This document shows, piece by piece, positions 48,020 through 56,703 of a DNA stretch of 64,000 nt. How positions within the stretch are numbered: the first letter of the stretch is position 1; every line of letters starts with the position of its first letter. A model generated the notes under the pieces. That model saw only the letters and a program-made list of their open reading frames with translations. It ran no database searches and had not been told where the DNA came from. Made by a program: the position numbers and the translations under genes. Location of the stretch: assembly GCF_011065405.1 (NCBI RefSeq), contig NZ_CP047056.1, positions 1,634,747 to 1,698,746 on the forward strand. Reading direction: 5' to 3'. This DNA is from Succinivibrio dextrinosolvens (lineage in GTDB: Bacteria > Pseudomonadota > Gammaproteobacteria > Enterobacterales > Succinivibrionaceae).

Positions 48020-50104
<2,085 letters not shown>

Positions 50105-50824
50105 CTAATCCTCTGACTTATCATAAGCTTTTAGAGTACGCTCAATGGAATCAAGCTTTTCCTCTGTCATTTCGACATTATCATTGTCATAAAGAACACC
50201 TCCAAGGTGTTCGATAAGGCAGTTAGCAGCAATTCTCATAGCCTTGAAGTAGATAAAGCATTTACCTTTGTTTGGCAGATGCATATAGATAGCAAGAGAT
50301 CGGGTAGAAAAATCAGACATATCCTTAGGGAAGGAATATGGTTCCTCTAGGGAGCAGATTCTAAATACAACGTGATCTTTTAATGAAGGATTCTCATATA
50401 CGCAGTAAATATCCTTCTCTCCTCTTATAAAACCGTAATTACCGAATAATTCTTCCAGATCAAGTCCTTTATATACACGACCGTCAGCTGCATACAGATT
50501 TAACTCATAGGTATTGCTGATCTGAGGCACTGGATTGTTTTTCTCAGAACTGCCGTCCTGAGGAATTTTCTTGGTGTCAGTCTTGTTAACAAAAGTCTCA
50601 ACCTTCTGAGGAACAACATCAGAAGAAGAAACGTCAGTCTGAGGCATAACTATTCTTACCTTGCCGACAGCCGATGAATTTGCAATCTCCTGATCTTCTT
50701 TTGAGGTTTTTACTAGTTTACGGTTAATGCTACGACCGGAGAACCACAGACCATGAACAACGAAGGCTAAAATCGCAACTGCCCCTACAATCAGAATAAT
50801 TGAACTTGAATCGTTGAAAGTCAT
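50105..50824 (-). CDS. zipA: Cell division protein ZipA
   Basis: A 239-residue protein with an N-terminal membrane anchor (SIILIVGAVAILAFVVHGLWF), a variable polar linker (about residues 30-105) and the C-terminal ZipA domain (NTYELNLYAADGRVYKGLDLEELF, in part; LFGNYGFIRGEKDIYCVYE). ZipA tethers FtsZ to the membrane. The short linker is within family variation. It is upstream of ligA; its promoter region has been separated from the divergent cysZ by an ISAs1 element. Confidence 0.94.
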   Translation of the reverse strand: MTFNDSSSIILIVGAVAILAFVVHGLWFSGRSINRKLVKTSKEDQEIANSSAVGKVRIVMPQTDVSSSDVVPQKVETFVNKTDTKKIPQDGSSEKNNPVPQISNTYELNLYAADGRVYKGLDLEELFGNYGFIRGEKDIYCVYENPSLKDHVVFRICSLEEPYSFPKDMSDFSTRSLAIYMHLPNKGKCFIYFKAMRIAANCLIEHLGGVLYDNDNVEMTEEKLDSIERTLKAYDKSED

Positions 50825-50922: not shown

Positions 50923-52754
50923 TATGGCGTCAACACCATATGATGGCGCTCACATAGTTACAAATTTGTAATTTACAAAAATTAATGTAAATTAATCAGT
51001 TAGTTAACCTACTGATTTTGTTCTTTCAAAATGTGATTCACGGATCAAACTTAATGTTGAATAATTAATATCCTTTCCCTGTAATTGTAACGGATACGAA
51101 AGAATAAAAATGACTTCAACTGACCAGAATGCTTTTGACAATACTATTAACGATGCTTCCTTTCTTCAGAGAATTGTTGAGCTGAATTTAACTGATCCTC
51201 GAGCACAGGATCGCATTATCTATCCTCTGAGTGTCATATGCTCTATAGTTATTTTAGCCAGAATATGTAACTGTAATGACGCAAGAGAACAGAGACTGTT
51301 TTGGTTAGAAAAGCTGCCTTGGCTTAAAGAAAGTTTCTATGGTTTGGATGATGACGTTCCATCAGAGCAGACCTTAAGAAGAGTAGTAAGCATTCTTAAT
51401 ACTAATGAAACGGTAAACTTCCTAACAAACTACTTTGCCAATCATAGAGAACTCTCAGAGAAACCATTGGGTTCAGTACCCTTAAAAGAAAGAGAGGTAA
51501 TAGCAGCAGATGGACAGAATATCAATGCAACAAGATCAAGCAAGAACGGTAATGATGCACGAAAAGATTCTGGCATCGACATCGTTAGTCTGCATTCCTC
51601 AACCTACGGAATTACTCTCTCCCAGAGAACTGTAGACAAGAAAAATCATGAGGCAGAAGTAATTCTGGATATGATTAAAGCTCTGAATCTGAGAAATGCA
51701 ATCCTCACCTGGGATGCCATAAATACCAGACCATATACTGTAAAGGCTGTGGTTGATGCCAATGCCGACTTTCTGGTTTGTCTGAAAGACAATCAGGGTA
51801 ATCTGATAGATGACGTAAAAACCGGATTTCAATTCTACGATATGGATAAATATCCAGGGGAATCTGTTTCATCTACCATGGTCTTTGAGGCTCATGGCAG
51901 AAAGGAAGGCAAAGAGATTGCAATTCTTGATGCCAAGTACGCCCTCTCTAAGGAAATGCGCAAAAAGTGGCCTGATGTCAATTCTGTGATAAGAGTAAGA
52001 ACCACAAGAATTTACAAAAACTCTAATACCATAGTTGAGAATGAAGACAGATTCTATATCAGCTCTCTGGTTATAGATGGACTGGATAAGGAATTTGCCG
52101 ATACCATGCTTAAAATCATTCTCCAGAGATGGAAGGTTGAATCAATGCACTGGGTACTGGATGTGGTCTTTGAGCAGGATCAGCTGCCATTAAGGAATAG
52201 AGACTATATAAACAACAGCACAATCTACACCAAAATGGCATTCAATATTCTTAGCTACATCAGGGACAATATTCCTTACCACTACAATAAACCATGGTCT
52301 TTCAAGACACTGAGAATGCTTGCACAGAAAGATGATTATGGATTCAAGTTCATGAAAGCATTCTTTACCAGGGATATGTCAGAGCTTGAGAACGATGAAG
52401 GTCTCATCGGCATTGTCTACAAAGAGGCTGAGCCAACAGGCAATGACATTCCTGACAATCTAAAAGAAACCGGTTTTGAGGCCAGTATCAATGATGATAC
52501 GCCACTTGGTAAGTTTGCTAGAGGAAGACATAAAATCAAGGCTAAACGAACTTAGATTTAATCCTTTGAATCATATTTTGAAAGAACAAAGCCAAAGTTA
52601 GTGAATAACCTTGGCACTTTGTCGTGCCTGACTATAAAACAGGGCTTTTGACAAAGATTTGTAAATTTGTAAATTGGCACAATTACCTGCCGATTTGGTT
52701 GAAAATCAGGCTTCAACAGATTTGAGATAATGATCTGATCGTGTTGGCGCCATA
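50923..52754 (+). mobile_element. ISAs1-family insertion sequence, complete
   Basis: An 1832-bp element bounded by 17-bp inverted repeats, TATGGCGTCAACACCAT (50923-50939) and the complement of 52738-52754, which match at 15 of 17 positions. A 9-bp duplication flanks both ends. It has one transposase gene. It stands in the zipA/cysZ divergent region, leaving about 90 bp before zipA and 140 bp before cysZ. The intact gene and duplication suggest a recent insertion. Confidence 0.93.
51110..52555 (+). CDS. ISAs1-family transposase
   Basis: A 481-residue transposase of the ISAs1 (H-repeat-related) DDE family. The acidic residues lie in VIAADGQNINATR, LTWDAINTRPYT and ILQRWKVESMHWVLDVVFEQD. Also visible are VDKKNHEAEVILDMI and FLVCLKDNQGNL. 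No frameshift is seen. The 170 bp before the start hold no gene. Confidence 0.93.
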   Translation: MTSTDQNAFDNTINDASFLQRIVELNLTDPRAQDRIIYPLSVICSIVILARICNCNDAREQRLFWLEKLPWLKESFYGLDDDVPSEQTLRRVVSILNTNETVNFLTNYFANHRELSEKPLGSVPLKEREVIAADGQNINATRSSKNGNDARKDSGIDIVSLHSSTYGITLSQRTVDKKNHEAEVILDMIKALNLRNAILTWDAINTRPYTVKAVVDANADFLVCLKDNQGNLIDDVKTGFQFYDMDKYPGESVSSTMVFEAHGRKEGKEIAILDAKYALSKEMRKKWPDVNSVIRVRTTRIYKNSNTIVENEDRFYISSLVIDGLDKEFADTMLKIILQRWKVESMHWVLDVVFEQDQLPLRNRDYINNSTIYTKMAFNILSYIRDNIPYHYNKPWSFKTLRMLAQKDDYGFKFMKAFFTRDMSELENDEGLIGIVYKEAEPTGNDIPDNLKETGFEASINDDTPLGKFARGRHKIKAKRT

Positions 52755-52894: not shown

Positions 52895-53674
52895 ATGCAA
52901 GGAACTAGTCAGTTAAAACTTGGAATAATGGATGCTGTAAGCTATCTTAAAAACGGGATCAGATTAGCACTATCCAAAGAATGTCGTCTTTACATTATTC
53001 TGCCTGTGCTGGTAAATTTAATTCTGTTGTCCTCTCTTGGCTATTATCTTTTTTCAAATCTAAAGACTCTTGTCTTTAATATTTTCGAGGATATTCCTTC
53101 CTATCTTAACTTTCTGGCATACATTATTTCAGCAATCTTAAGCATTACCATTATTTTTGTCAGCTGCTATATTTTCTCCACTCTTGCTACCATAATTGCG
53201 TCTCCTTTCTACGGTCTTCTTGCAGATAAAGTTGAAATGATTCTCAATCAGAGTCATGGTGAGGATATGACTATACCTCAGCTTATTAAGGACATACCAA
53301 GAATCCTTTTAAGAGAGCTCAAAAAACAGATGTTTTTCCTGCCACTGGCGCTGGCATGTCTGATAATCTCATTTATTCCTGCCTTAAATCTTATAGCGCC
53401 AGTGCTCTGGTTTGCACTCACCGCTTGGATGGGCTGTCTGCAGTACTGTGACTATGCTTATGACAACCATAAGATCCCTTTTAATTCCATGCAGCGAGAT
53501 CTGAAAAAAAATCCAGTTGCAACCCTAAGCTTTGGCACCGTGATTGCGCTGTCGCTTTCAGTACCTGTTCTCAATATTCTGATACCTCCTGCAGCTGTAT
53601 GTGCAGGAACAAGATATTATCTGGAAATACAGAAAAACATCCTCCAGAACATTCGTCATAACAACCAGGAGTAG
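52895..53674 (+). CDS. cysZ: Sulfate transporter CysZ / DUF540-type membrane protein
   Basis: A 259-residue inner-membrane protein with four hydrophobic segments and CysZ motifs: LKNGIRLALSKECRLYIILPVL (part), ASPFYGLLADKVE, DIPRILLRELKKQMFFLPLA, WMGCLQYCDYAYDNHKIPF and AAVCAGTRYYLE. In E. coli it feeds sulfate to cysteine synthesis and precedes cysK-ptsH-ptsI-crr. Here cysK is missing and the next frame, 2 bp on, is the Enzyme I homologue, whose ribosome-binding site (AGGAG) lies in the cysZ stop region. Confidence 0.93.
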   Translation: MQGTSQLKLGIMDAVSYLKNGIRLALSKECRLYIILPVLVNLILLSSLGYYLFSNLKTLVFNIFEDIPSYLNFLAYIISAILSITIIFVSCYIFSTLATIIASPFYGLLADKVEMILNQSHGEDMTIPQLIKDIPRILLRELKKQMFFLPLALACLIISFIPALNLIAPVLWFALTAWMGCLQYCDYAYDNHKIPFNSMQRDLKKNPVATLSFGTVIALSLSVPVLNILIPPAAVCAGTRYYLEIQKNILQNIRHNNQE

Positions 53675-53676
53675 AT

Positions 53677-55332
53677 ATGTATACACTATCAGGAGTATCT
53701 GCCGGAGCAGGAGTTGGAGCAGCTCCATCCCTGACCATATCCAAAACAAAAAATACAAATTCGACTGAAGAAATTTTTGCTTATGACGTTGAAACCGAGG
53801 TTGATCGTTTTAATAAAAAATCATCCCGTTTTTCACAGAAACTGCTTCAAATTGTAAATCCGGCAAAAGACTCAGTAAGAGATCTTATCGGCGCAACTGC
53901 TGGCTTTATAACATCTTCGGACAATAAACTTGAAATACTTGAACTTATCAAAAGAGGCTGCTCTGCTAGCATGGCAGCAAGAACAGTTTTGTTCGAGAAT
54001 CTGGATAACTTTTTTAAAAAAGAAAATGATCTGAAAACAGATAAATCAGAAATACAGTCTCTGCTGAATGAATTTATTCATACTCTTGAACATTCCAAAG
54101 CTGATGAAATTGAACTCCCAGAATTAAAAGAGGATGTGGTTCTTATTGCAAGAACAATTTCCCCTGCTCAGCTACTTTCACTGGATACTAAATTTGTAAA
54201 GGGAGTGGTTTTGGAGGAAGGAAGAGACTCAAGTCATCTTGGAGTAGTTCTCAGAGAGCTGAATATTCCTGCTGTTTTTGGTGTTTTTGATGCAACCAAC
54301 ATCAAATCAGGAACATACGTGATTGTAGACAGCAACGCTGCTGTTGTAATCGTTGAGCCTCCAGAGGATATGACTCAGGGAATCCTGCGAAGACAGGAAT
54401 CCCAGCTGTTTCAGATTAATGACGAATCCCTTCTGAATATAACACTTGGAGCCGCAGTTGGCGCAATAAGCCAGAATGATGATGTGGAAAAAATAACCGC
54501 ACACGGACTTGGGCTTCTGCGGTCAGAATTTCTATTCCTAAGCTCCATGACAGAACCAACCGAAGAGGAGATGACACAGAGATTCAATCTGATTTTTTCA
54601 AAAGTAAAAAAGAATGCCCCTCTAACCTCAAGAACCTTTGATTTTGCCGATGATAAAAAACCTTTATTCACTGTAATTACAGATGACGAAGGTCCTTTAA
54701 AGGGCTATGGAGCTTGCGTAGGGACTGCTCTTTTAAAAAAAGAAATCAGAGCCATGCTAAGAGCTTCTGTTGGACAGGAGATTACTATTGTTTTTCCTCT
54801 AATCACAAAAATCAGCGAAAAGGACTATCTATTTAAACTGGCAAATGACTGTCAGGCTGAACTTGAGGCTCAAAAAATCCATCATGGAAAAATGTTAATC
54901 TCTTTCATGGTGGAAACACCTGCGGCTGTATTGCTAGCACCAGCCTTTGCAACAAACAGTGCAATGATGCTTTTGGGAACAAGCTCTCTTGCAGAATATG
55001 CCTCTGCGCCATGCCCTGCAGATTCAGCCTTTACCCCTGTTTTAGCAAAAATGATTGCCATGGCAGCAAAGGCTGCACACGAAGCGGGTGTTACTCTTGG
55101 AGTTGCAGGCAGATTCGCTTCAAGAACTGAGCTTTTACCTTTCTTTTACAAAATGGGGGTATCTTATCTTGTAACAGGTACTTATAATATTCAGAAAGTT
55201 AAAGGTGTAGTTGAAAGGCTGAATCTTGAGCATGACATTCAGCCTTGCTTTGACATTGAACTATACAATAAGATTATAACCTGTTACACAGGCTCAGAGT
55301 TAAGTGAAATTCTGAATTCCTTCTCCTGTTAG
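53677..55332 (+). CDS. Enzyme I homologue of the PEP phosphotransferase system, catalytically degenerate
   Basis: A 551-residue homologue of PtsI (about 575), colinear throughout. The phospho-histidine region survives (RDSSHLGVVLRELNIPAVFG, His about 187), as do R in GLGLLRSEFLF, R in RTFDFADDK and E in MVETPAAV. However, the usual G-W/L-R-A-I-R becomes GYGACV, the Mg-binding G-T-N-D-L-T-Q becomes GTSSLAE (Asn-Asp to Ser-Ser, about 436-437), and the catalytic cysteine of C-G-E-x-A-G-D becomes A (VAGRFAS, about 477). PEP-dependent self-phosphorylation is therefore unlikely. It follows cysZ by 2 bp and precedes the EIIA homologue. No ptsH lies nearby. A separate, active Enzyme I might exist elsewhere. 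Confidence 0.9.
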   Translation: MYTLSGVSAGAGVGAAPSLTISKTKNTNSTEEIFAYDVETEVDRFNKKSSRFSQKLLQIVNPAKDSVRDLIGATAGFITSSDNKLEILELIKRGCSASMAARTVLFENLDNFFKKENDLKTDKSEIQSLLNEFIHTLEHSKADEIELPELKEDVVLIARTISPAQLLSLDTKFVKGVVLEEGRDSSHLGVVLRELNIPAVFGVFDATNIKSGTYVIVDSNAAVVIVEPPEDMTQGILRRQESQLFQINDESLLNITLGAAVGAISQNDDVEKITAHGLGLLRSEFLFLSSMTEPTEEEMTQRFNLIFSKVKKNAPLTSRTFDFADDKKPLFTVITDDEGPLKGYGACVGTALLKKEIRAMLRASVGQEITIVFPLITKISEKDYLFKLANDCQAELEAQKIHHGKMLISFMVETPAAVLLAPAFATNSAMMLLGTSSLAEYASAPCPADSAFTPVLAKMIAMAAKAAHEAGVTLGVAGRFASRTELLPFFYKMGVSYLVTGTYNIQKVKGVVERLNLEHDIQPCFDIELYNKIITCYTGSELSEILNSFSC

Positions 55333-55423: not shown

Positions 55424-55990
55424 ATGGGACTCTTTTCATTCTTTTCTAAAAACGACGATGCCATCGATGAAGCAAAAAACGAAGCAGATTTAGAGCTGCT
55501 TGCTCCGGTTTCAGGAAATCTTGTTCCTCTTGGTGAAGTGCCAGATCTAGTTATATCAGAAAAACTGATTGGAGATGGAGTTGCCATAATTCCAGATGAT
55601 TCTCATATACTTGCACCTTGCTCAGGTATAGTCTCACGTCTGGTAGCATCCAACAATGCATTTGCAATCAGAACCGACAGCGGAATTGAAGTTTACGTCA
55701 CTTTTGGAATCGGAACCTCTAATTTTACGGGAGAGGGGTTAAGCTCTAATGTTGGTATTGGAGACAGAGTAGAGACAGGAACCCCAATTATCAACATTGA
55801 TATCAATCATGTATCAGAACAGCTAGAATCCACCATTACCTCAATGATTGTGGTTAATTCATCTGCCTCAATCGCCAGAGTGATCAGCGCCTCAGGAAAG
55901 GTTGTGGCAGGACAGACCCCATGCACCTGGGTTATTCTTGAGGATGACAATGCACAAAAAAAAGATGAAGAGAACTCTCAACATCCTTAA
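55424..55990 (+). CDS. EIIA-Glc (Crr) homologue lacking both active-site histidines
   Basis: A 188-residue homologue of the soluble EIIA-Glc protein, matching from MGLFSFFSK to GQTPCTWVI with family motifs LLAPVSGNLVPLGEVPD, GDGVAIIPD and DSGIEV. The two histidines of the phosphotransfer site are replaced: N-H-A-F is NNAF (Asn 78 for His 75) and V-H-F-G-I-D is VTFGIG (Thr 93 for His 90; Gly 97 for Asp 94). It cannot carry phosphate there, but the binding surface used to control permeases and adenylate cyclase may persist. A charged 20-residue C-terminal tail is extra. It lies 91 bp after the Enzyme I homologue. Confidence 0.92.
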   Translation: MGLFSFFSKNDDAIDEAKNEADLELLAPVSGNLVPLGEVPDLVISEKLIGDGVAIIPDDSHILAPCSGIVSRLVASNNAFAIRTDSGIEVYVTFGIGTSNFTGEGLSSNVGIGDRVETGTPIINIDINHVSEQLESTITSMIVVNSSASIARVISASGKVVAGQTPCTWVILEDDNAQKKDEENSQHP

Positions 55991-56061: not shown

Positions 56062-56703
56062 TTATACATTACTTAGGGTAGCTGACTCTGACATTTCATC
56101 AGCTCCACTTACAGTAGTATCATTCTGAGAAACTGACTCGTTCTGAACAGGCTCAGGTCTTCTTCCATGGGGAGCTGTTGGCCCCTCATCATCTGACTCC
56201 GTCTGAACTTCTGCTCTAGGCTGAGTATTTATTGATGAAGAGGCTGATGAAGCTTCATCAGCTACTACAGGAGCAGATTCGCTATCCTCAGACAGGGTTG
56301 AGCTTTCATCCTGAACTGCTGTCTTTGGTTTATACCTGTCAGCAATTTCCTGATCGATCTTTGCCTGATTCTGCTCGCGCTGCTTCTTCAAAGTCATGTA
56401 ATCGTAGGTATAGGATACATCTGATGTTTTCTTATCAGTTTTTTTTGCATCCTGAGTACCAGACTCATTGAATTTCTTCAAAGCCTCAATTGCATCTTTG
56501 CTAATCTCAACATCTTCAGAACCAGTAGCTTTCTTAAGTTTCTCTTCAAAAGCCTTCTTAAACCTAGTCTCTGTACTTACAGAAGCACTGGCTTCAGTTA
56601 AGATCTGAACATAGTTCTTAGAATCTGTATTCTGAGTTCCAGAAGAAGAAAAGCTGGAAATAGCATTCTGAATGCTGGTAAGTGCACTTGCATCTATACT
56701 CAT
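56062..56703 (-). CDS. Low-complexity Ser/Glu/Thr-rich protein of unknown function
   Basis: A 213-residue acidic protein without signal peptide or membrane segment. A more ordered N-terminal half (SIDASALTSIQNAISSF; RFKKAFEEKLKKATG; ISKDAIEALKKFNESG) is followed by a coiled-coil-like stretch (MTLKKQREQNQAKIDQEIADRYK, in part). The rest is a disordered Ser/Glu/Asp/Ala tail. I do not recognise a family. A good GGAGG-like box lies before the start (AGGAGG complement at about 56708-56713). It is monocistronic between crr and pntB. Confidence 0.6.
   Translation of the reverse strand: MSIDASALTSIQNAISSFSSSGTQNTDSKNYVQILTEASASVSTETRFKKAFEEKLKKATGSEDVEISKDAIEALKKFNESGTQDAKKTDKKTSDVSYTYDYMTLKKQREQNQAKIDQEIADRYKPKTAVQDESSTLSEDSESAPVVADEASSASSSINTQPRAEVQTESDDEGPTAPHGRRPEPVQNESVSQNDTTVSGADEMSESATLSNV

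Follow-up and report, generated by a model that had tools for sequence, protein, structure and literature searches.

EIIA-Glc (Crr) is the textbook case of a protein that signals by its phosphorylation state. According to the available portion of one report, dephosphorylated EIIA-Glc stimulates FrsA, and adenylate cyclase is stimulated by the phosphorylated form only (PMC6877527). Likewise, the accessible text of another describes binding of CsrD by unphosphorylated EIIA-Glc (PMC5027483). Laboratory H91A alleles mimic the unphosphorylated form, and the part of PMC6123446 available to us cites a His91Ala EIIA-Glc as restoring csrB decay in E. coli. Given that this allele restores csrB decay and that unphosphorylated EIIA-Glc binds CsrD, an EIIA without its histidine can be a working regulator.

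Loss of the phosphorylated histidine is known from Crh, an HPr paralogue of Bacillus and Parageobacillus that in P. thermoglucosidasius has Gln for His15 (PMC9631020, available part). Crh retains a PTS fold for regulation after the loss of its phospho-His, yet it is HPr-like and is still phosphorylated, on Ser46. The PTS-Ntr of E. coli (PMC2405797) and the Brucella PTS (PMC2937029) are, in the portions accessible to us, systems with no sugar permease of their own that are thought to be regulatory; PTS-Ntr is a parallel phosphoryl-transfer chain (PMC2405797). KPN00353 of Klebsiella is, by the available text, an EIIA of another family that keeps its histidine (PMC5770620), unlike the protein described below. 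Among the papers that a partial coverage of the literature returned, judged from titles and the beginnings of abstracts, we found none on a dead EI-EIIA pair, and the words 'phosphotransferase' and 'PTS' are absent from the available part of the S. dextrinosolvens Z6 genome paper (PMC7507024).

The window analysed here, a stretch of 64,000 nucleotides from a Succinivibrio dextrinosolvens genome of 3.47 Mb in a single contig, encodes a Crr homologue in which both histidines of the phosphotransfer site are replaced:

55424..55990, plus strand: His-less Crr, EIIA-Glc homologue without both phosphotransfer histidines (open reading frame, profile, PDB alignment, AlphaFold2 model)
55655..55657, plus strand: Asn78, codon AAT, facing E. 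coli His75 (76 counting Met; alignment to 4jbw)
55700..55702, plus strand: Thr93, codon ACT, facing the phosphorylated E. coli His90 (91 counting Met; alignment to 4jbw)

The reading frame starts with ATG and is open throughout its 188 codons, and its product scores above the family cut-offs of PF00358 (116.2 bits, cut-off 27.2) and TIGR00830 (101.9, cut-off 97.5). It stays below that of NF006962, the equivalog profile for the PTS glucose transporter subunit IIA (141.4 bits, cut-off 212), a weak criterion, since an EIIA of the same genome with both histidines is also below it (123.6). E. coli EIIA-Glc, as solved in 4jbw, aligns to residues 12-167 (E 1e-33), with NHAF and VHFGID of the E. coli active site facing NNAF and VTFGIG. 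The original prediction of an EIIA-Glc homologue with an intact frame, whose active-site histidines are replaced by Asn and Thr, is borne out by the frame, the PF00358 score and this alignment. A Gly in place of the nearby conserved Asp, pointed out at the same time, is indeed present, but as a mark of inactivity we reject it: the paralogue with both histidines that this genome encodes shares the Gly (HLGIGT), and some His-less orthologues (G031, G035, G037) have Asp. Modelling on EIIA-Glc had also been proposed; the AlphaFold2 model (pLDDT 82.9) finds as its best Foldseek match in the PDB E. coli EIIA-Glc itself (1f3g, E 9.7e-16, TM (target) 0.92), and it matches the solved EIIA-Glc structures 2mp0, 3our and 1gla as well (E <=1.2e-14, 1f3g included). 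By hydrophobic moment there is little to support an N-terminal membrane helix: 8 of 40 rows reach p<=0.05, and the window's own protein has 0.23. Named records that carry the protein are RUG260 (uncultured Succinatimonas, 100% identity) and S. dextrinosolvens strains ACV-10 (96%) and DSM 3072 (90%).

Is the loss peculiar to this genome? We surveyed 56 genomes of the family, taken as Succinivibrionaceae, most of the relatives being partly incomplete, and some EIIA match is present in all of them. Eight genera (g1-g6, g8 and g10; 41 genomes) form the His-less clade, here clade A, and the other genera, with 15 genomes, its sister clade. An orthologue of the His-less Crr occurs in 40 of the 41 clade A genomes, the sole one in which we found none being G017 (88% complete). 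At the His90 position these 40 carry Thr (22), Ser (12), Arg (3), Val, Asn or Gly (1 each) and never His; at the His75 position they carry Asn (27), Thr (7), Ser (5) and, in G036 only, His. In the sister clade, His90 is present in 15 of 15 Crr proteins and His75 in 14, the remaining one having Asn. The pair that defines the EIIA-Glc family, a phosphorylated His90 with its partner His75, is thus lacking throughout clade A, His90 in 40/40 and His75 in 39/40. Stop-to-stop frames of at least 170 residues are found in all 39 clade relatives of the window. Forty orthologues without His90 rule out a sequencing error or a one-off mutation, and on these alignments the loss is confirmed and is stronger than first stated. 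The sister-clade Crr with Asn at the His75 position, His90 kept, is that of G054 (L075, G054:C57), a genome whose single TIGR01417 match sits in a 785-aa frame, a PtsP-like length.

On the tree, clade A is one side of one branch (support 100/98) and a single label change is needed; the histidines were therefore probably lost in one event. E. coli Crr, the sister-clade Crr and the His-less Crr share one branch side (95/91) and the locus, set against the E. coli gene order, is the enterobacterial one, so a horizontal origin is not favoured. Other residues have become fixed in the clade only (E. coli numbering with Met): Phe42 is Ile and Phe89 is Tyr in 40/40, position 140 is Ile in 40/40 and Arg166 is Trp in 39/40. 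The protein therefore resembles the EIIA-Glc of E. coli and Vibrio in locus, fold, length and position after an EI gene, and differs from it by the loss of both phosphotransfer histidines and by the fixed or nearly fixed changes at Phe42, Phe89 and Arg166.

Thr or Ser stands at the His90 position in 34 of the 40 proteins, and such residues could in principle have kept a phosphorylation switch alive. However, PTS transfer to this site of EIIA uses histidine, Arg, Val, Asn or Gly takes the position in the other 6, and no kinase gene lies among the named neighbours of these loci; we consider a switch of this kind highly improbable.

The gene is also under selection. NG86 dN/dS lies between 0 and 0.18 in 13 of 14 clade pairs, the last being undefined, and many dS values in these pairs are near or above 1; the pairs with moderate dS both give 0.05 (G001-G010, dS 0.38; G019-G026, dS 0.20). 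Crr proteins with histidines have the same range (0.009-0.17 in the 5 of 6 pairs that are defined). A ratio near 1 had been named as the sign of drift; the values are far below it, and drift is unsupported. Mean identity to the window is 54.2% for the His-less Crr against 55.7% for CysZ (35 genomes), 59.7% against 56.8% for ZipA (19 genomes), 57.8% against 81.0% for PntB (23 genomes) and 72.3% against 81.7% for LigA (8 genomes). Because the protein is no better conserved than CysZ and far less than PntB, we regard the constraint as moderate. Given that neither histidine is present, that the loss is clade-wide and that selection is purifying, the proposal of a permanently unphosphorylated EIIA is, at the level of sequence, well supported.

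In the window the order of the genes in this neighborhood is ligA, zipA, a transposase gene, cysZ, an Enzyme I gene, the gene for the His-less Crr, a gene of unknown function and pntB-pntA, with these landmarks upstream:

48020-50101: ligA, locus landmark together with zipA
50105..50824, minus strand: zipA (PF04354; synteny where the fetched stretch reaches)
52895..53674, plus strand: cysZ (PF07264 and NF003433 over cut-off)

cysZ lies beside the Enzyme I gene or the crr homologue in the window and in 35 of 39 other clade loci; in three of the four exceptions (G010, G013 and G015) the contig stops there, and in G020 an unlabelled open reading frame takes that place. The counterpart in E. coli is cysZ-cysK-ptsH-ptsI-crr, which here stands without cysK and ptsH. 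No HPr match was found on the contig of the His-less Crr in 39 of 40 clade genomes, and in the window genome HPr is encoded 1.2 Mb away. In the sister clade, G039 and G055 encode HPr next to EI and crr, and g9, which keeps the histidines, encodes it elsewhere; absence of HPr from the locus is therefore, on its own, no mark of the His-less clade. The transposase, of the DDE type, lies between zipA and cysZ (51110-52555 of the window), and no match to it was found in 55 compared loci, not all of which reach that far. Between the crr homologue and pntB lies a gene without a Pfam match (56062-56703, minus strand), with similar open reading frames in 9 of 55 loci, all of the same genus.

The Enzyme I encoded directly upstream is itself altered at its active site:

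53677..55332, plus strand: Enzyme I pseudoenzyme (pseudo-EI), 551 aa (Pfam, TIGR01417, Enzyme I folds)
54235..54237, plus strand: His187, counterpart of the phospho-His, kept in 37/37 (alignment)
54982..54987, plus strand: Ser436-Ser437 in place of Asn-Asp of GTNDL, 37/37 (alignment)
55105..55107, plus strand: Ala477 where CGE has its catalytic Cys, Ala in 36/37 and Val in G029 (alignment)

PF02896 and PF00391 match above their cut-offs (PF00391 56.9 bits against 23.1), PF05524 falls below (20.8 against 24.4), and the best PDB fold matches of the model are Enzyme I entries, taken from domain matches alone as its pTM is 0.58. The TIGR01417 score is 200.8 bits (cut-off 341.7); two sister-clade Enzymes I with their motifs kept also just fall short (339.8 and 340.6), so the motifs weigh more than this score. 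Alignment to the EI2 and PtsP of this genome and to six sister-clade Enzymes I shows that GTNDL has become GTSSL and CGE has become AGR; Asn-Asp is retained in those six and in the second piece of the G055 enzyme. His187 presumably corresponds to E. coli His189, Ser436-Ser437 to Asn454 and Asp455, the latter a Mg ligand, and Ala477 to the proton donor Cys502. Thus the phospho-His of the mobile domain is present, and the NDL of the PEP site and the catalytic Cys are not. The Arg that follows AG is not invariant. All 37 proteins retain two other Arg (in GLLRSEF and RTFDF) and the Glu in ETPAA. Where EI2 and PtsP have an Arg, the pseudo-EI has Gly345, part of a Tyr-Gly pair, and the sister-clade sequences align poorly at this site. 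These counts are made without G010 and G015, whose sequences are truncated by contig ends, though both show SSL and AGR. The alignment has 102 near-invariant columns, and NG86 dN/dS is 0.015-0.10 (12 of 14 pairs). Because the tree counts the concerted loss only once, its joint occurrence in Enzyme I and EIIA carries no statistical weight.

Among 394 genomes drawn from the order, matches to the pseudo-EI at E<=1e-55 occur in 23, all within the family, which rules out its presence outside the family in this sample. An apparent fusion of the two genes in G035 (a 731-aa open frame) was rejected, as a TGA separates them. In one genome, G014 (86% complete; L116, G014:C90), cysZ is followed by the His-less crr, their aligned ends some 130 bases apart, and the pseudo-EI is missing; two other Enzyme I matches are found there, one EI2-like and one PtsP-like. 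The pseudo-EI is, in this one case, dispensable for keeping the His-less Crr. In the sister-clade genome G055 (L082, G055:C34), the Enzyme I gene next to crr comes as two separate frames, owing to a break or an assembly error.

What would such an Enzyme I do? The set of residues in its pocket (SSL in 37/37, AG for CG in 36/37, Tyr-Gly for Arg, with two Arg and a Glu kept) would fit a phosphate-free two-protein sensor, in which the pocket binds another metabolite and signals to the His-less Crr by conformation and contact, the phosphorelay having turned into an allosteric switch. We hold this reading to be tentative and rather unlikely. Less likely again, the pseudo-EI may accept phosphate instead of sensing a ligand, with His187 taking phosphate from HPr~P and the protein signaling to the His-less Crr by binding. 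The invariance of His187 (37/37), the score of the mobile domain around it against PF00391 and the one HPr, with its histidine in the usual place and encoded away from the locus, would all fit; however, the HPr-binding N-terminal domain is the weakest in the protein (PF05524, below cut-off), His187 could be kept for structure, and the His-less Crr persists without the pseudo-EI in G014.

Elsewhere the window genome encodes a further Enzyme I with its motifs (EI2, at 1377743-1379371, with the His, NDL and CGE), an EI-Ntr (PtsP, which keeps NDL and CGE), HPr and an EIIA with both histidines. A TIGR01417 match of at least 470 bits, judged outside the window genome by score alone and inspected for motifs within it, is encoded away from the locus in 39 of 41 clade A genomes and in 0 of 15 others; it is absent from G006 (59% complete), and G010 holds it as two pieces on two contigs. 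HPr was found in 50 of the 56 family genomes. In g2-g6 and g8 a second EIIA has both histidines in 18 of 18 stretches fetched, those of G019, G026 and G035 being left out of the count, and 16 of the 18 stretches hold an EI and 16 an HPr. PF02378, which is one EIIC family, is found in 23 of 56 genomes, including 2 of 19 of the window's genus; the window genome has no EIIC of this family.

With another Enzyme I in the same genomes, both proteins may be thought of as decaying relics of a replaced PTS that are heading for loss. The absence of the pseudo-EI from G014, the failure to find a His-less Crr in G017 and the low identity of this protein within the genus (44-64%, nearest relatives aside) agree with such a fate, yet 40 genomes from 8 genera have the gene as an open frame, its dN/dS falls well short of 1, and newly fixed clade residues together with the 102 near-invariant columns of the pseudo-EI would be unexpected under decay. 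This makes relics very doubtful.

We find that the two proteins are best described as a conserved pseudo-PTS pair. Our preferred reading, to which we give a probability of roughly two in three, is that the EIIA is a regulator blind to phosphorylation, that the EI next to it is a pseudoenzyme and that the case compares with Crh. What the analysis shows are the residues, their distribution, the selection on them, the order of the genes and the fold, and from there we infer a partner and a means of control. The retained G036 histidine at the His75 position, inside the clade, counts against it, as do the moderate constraint, the dS values near or above 1 and the weak membrane helix. The His-less Crr would be the descendant of the enterobacterial EIIA-Glc, retained after losing its phosphotransfer job. 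In an ancestor of clade A, the resident Enzyme I and EIIA may both have lost their phosphate-carrying residues, another Enzyme I, encoded elsewhere in the genome, replacing the resident one. The protein would then dock constitutively on a classical EIIA-Glc partner, its signal being set by protein level or by binding of the pseudo-EI and not by phosphate. As in Crh, the phospho-His is lost and the protein kept, judging by distribution and dN/dS, and the likeness would extend to a regulatory role; unlike Crh, it is an EIIA, at the crr locus itself, with a degenerate EI. It resembles the H91A alleles in mimicking the unphosphorylated form, but its substitution is natural, clade-wide and next to a degenerate EI. 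Like PTS-Ntr and the Brucella PTS, the pair has no sugar permease of its own and may be regulatory, whereas in contrast to the parallel transfer chain of PTS-Ntr, this chain itself looks dead.

Which partner would be retained? CyaA is encoded in 54 and FrsA in 52 of the 56 genomes, in both clades; this presence singles out neither, because genomes whose Crr retains the histidines encode both as well. Activation of CyaA is disfavoured since only phosphorylated EIIA-Glc is said, in the accessible part of the source, to stimulate adenylate cyclase (PMC6877527). FrsA is our best candidate, with CyaA or a transporter next, stimulation of CyaA being less likely. Glycerol kinase is a less likely partner: GlpK is above its cut-off (590 bits) in 15 of 56 genomes and not in the window genome, where it reaches 505 bits and lies beside another EIIA. 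Taken as a whole, the interpretation first offered is partly supported, in that a permanently unphosphorylated protein agrees with the sequence, while a fixed inhibitory EIIA signal or a new partner would be candidate roles. The degenerate Enzyme I next door, the lack of an HPr at the locus, the further PTS proteins encoded elsewhere and the second His-less EIIA lineage, none of them part of that interpretation, change the picture. With both proteins kept but their phosphate-carrying residues gone, this clade of rumen and gut bacteria offers a natural separation of EIIA binding from EIIA phosphotransfer, in which the partner worth keeping (FrsA, CyaA, transporters or CsrD) can be put to the test. 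It also carries a warning for annotation, as family scores make the two genes resemble crr and ptsI, yet they should not count as a sign that Succinivibrio takes up sugar by a PTS.

Within the window's genus, another EIIA lineage lacks its histidines as well. An orphan EIIA-like protein of the window genome (C1:3295425-3295787; L013:9372-9872) has Asn at both positions, as in all 11 of the g1 genomes in which it was fetched; a twelfth stretch fetched, the second copy of G015, holds another EIIA with both histidines. The 11 proteins form their own long branch (support 100/100). Going by these residues and this branch, an EIIA has probably lost both histidines and yet been kept on two occasions here.

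The EIIA with both histidines in the window genome lies in an operon-like run (C1:2003920-2013427; L012:3921-13428) of genes for a sugar-binding protein, an ABC ATPase, a permease, the EIIA, a 467-aa protein without a Pfam match at 1e-10, two transketolase halves and an FGGY kinase, the latter GlpK-like at 505 bits and below the GlpK cut-off. In at least 13 relatives a single contig carries an EIIA gene and a gene for a GlpK-like kinase no more than about 6 kb apart.
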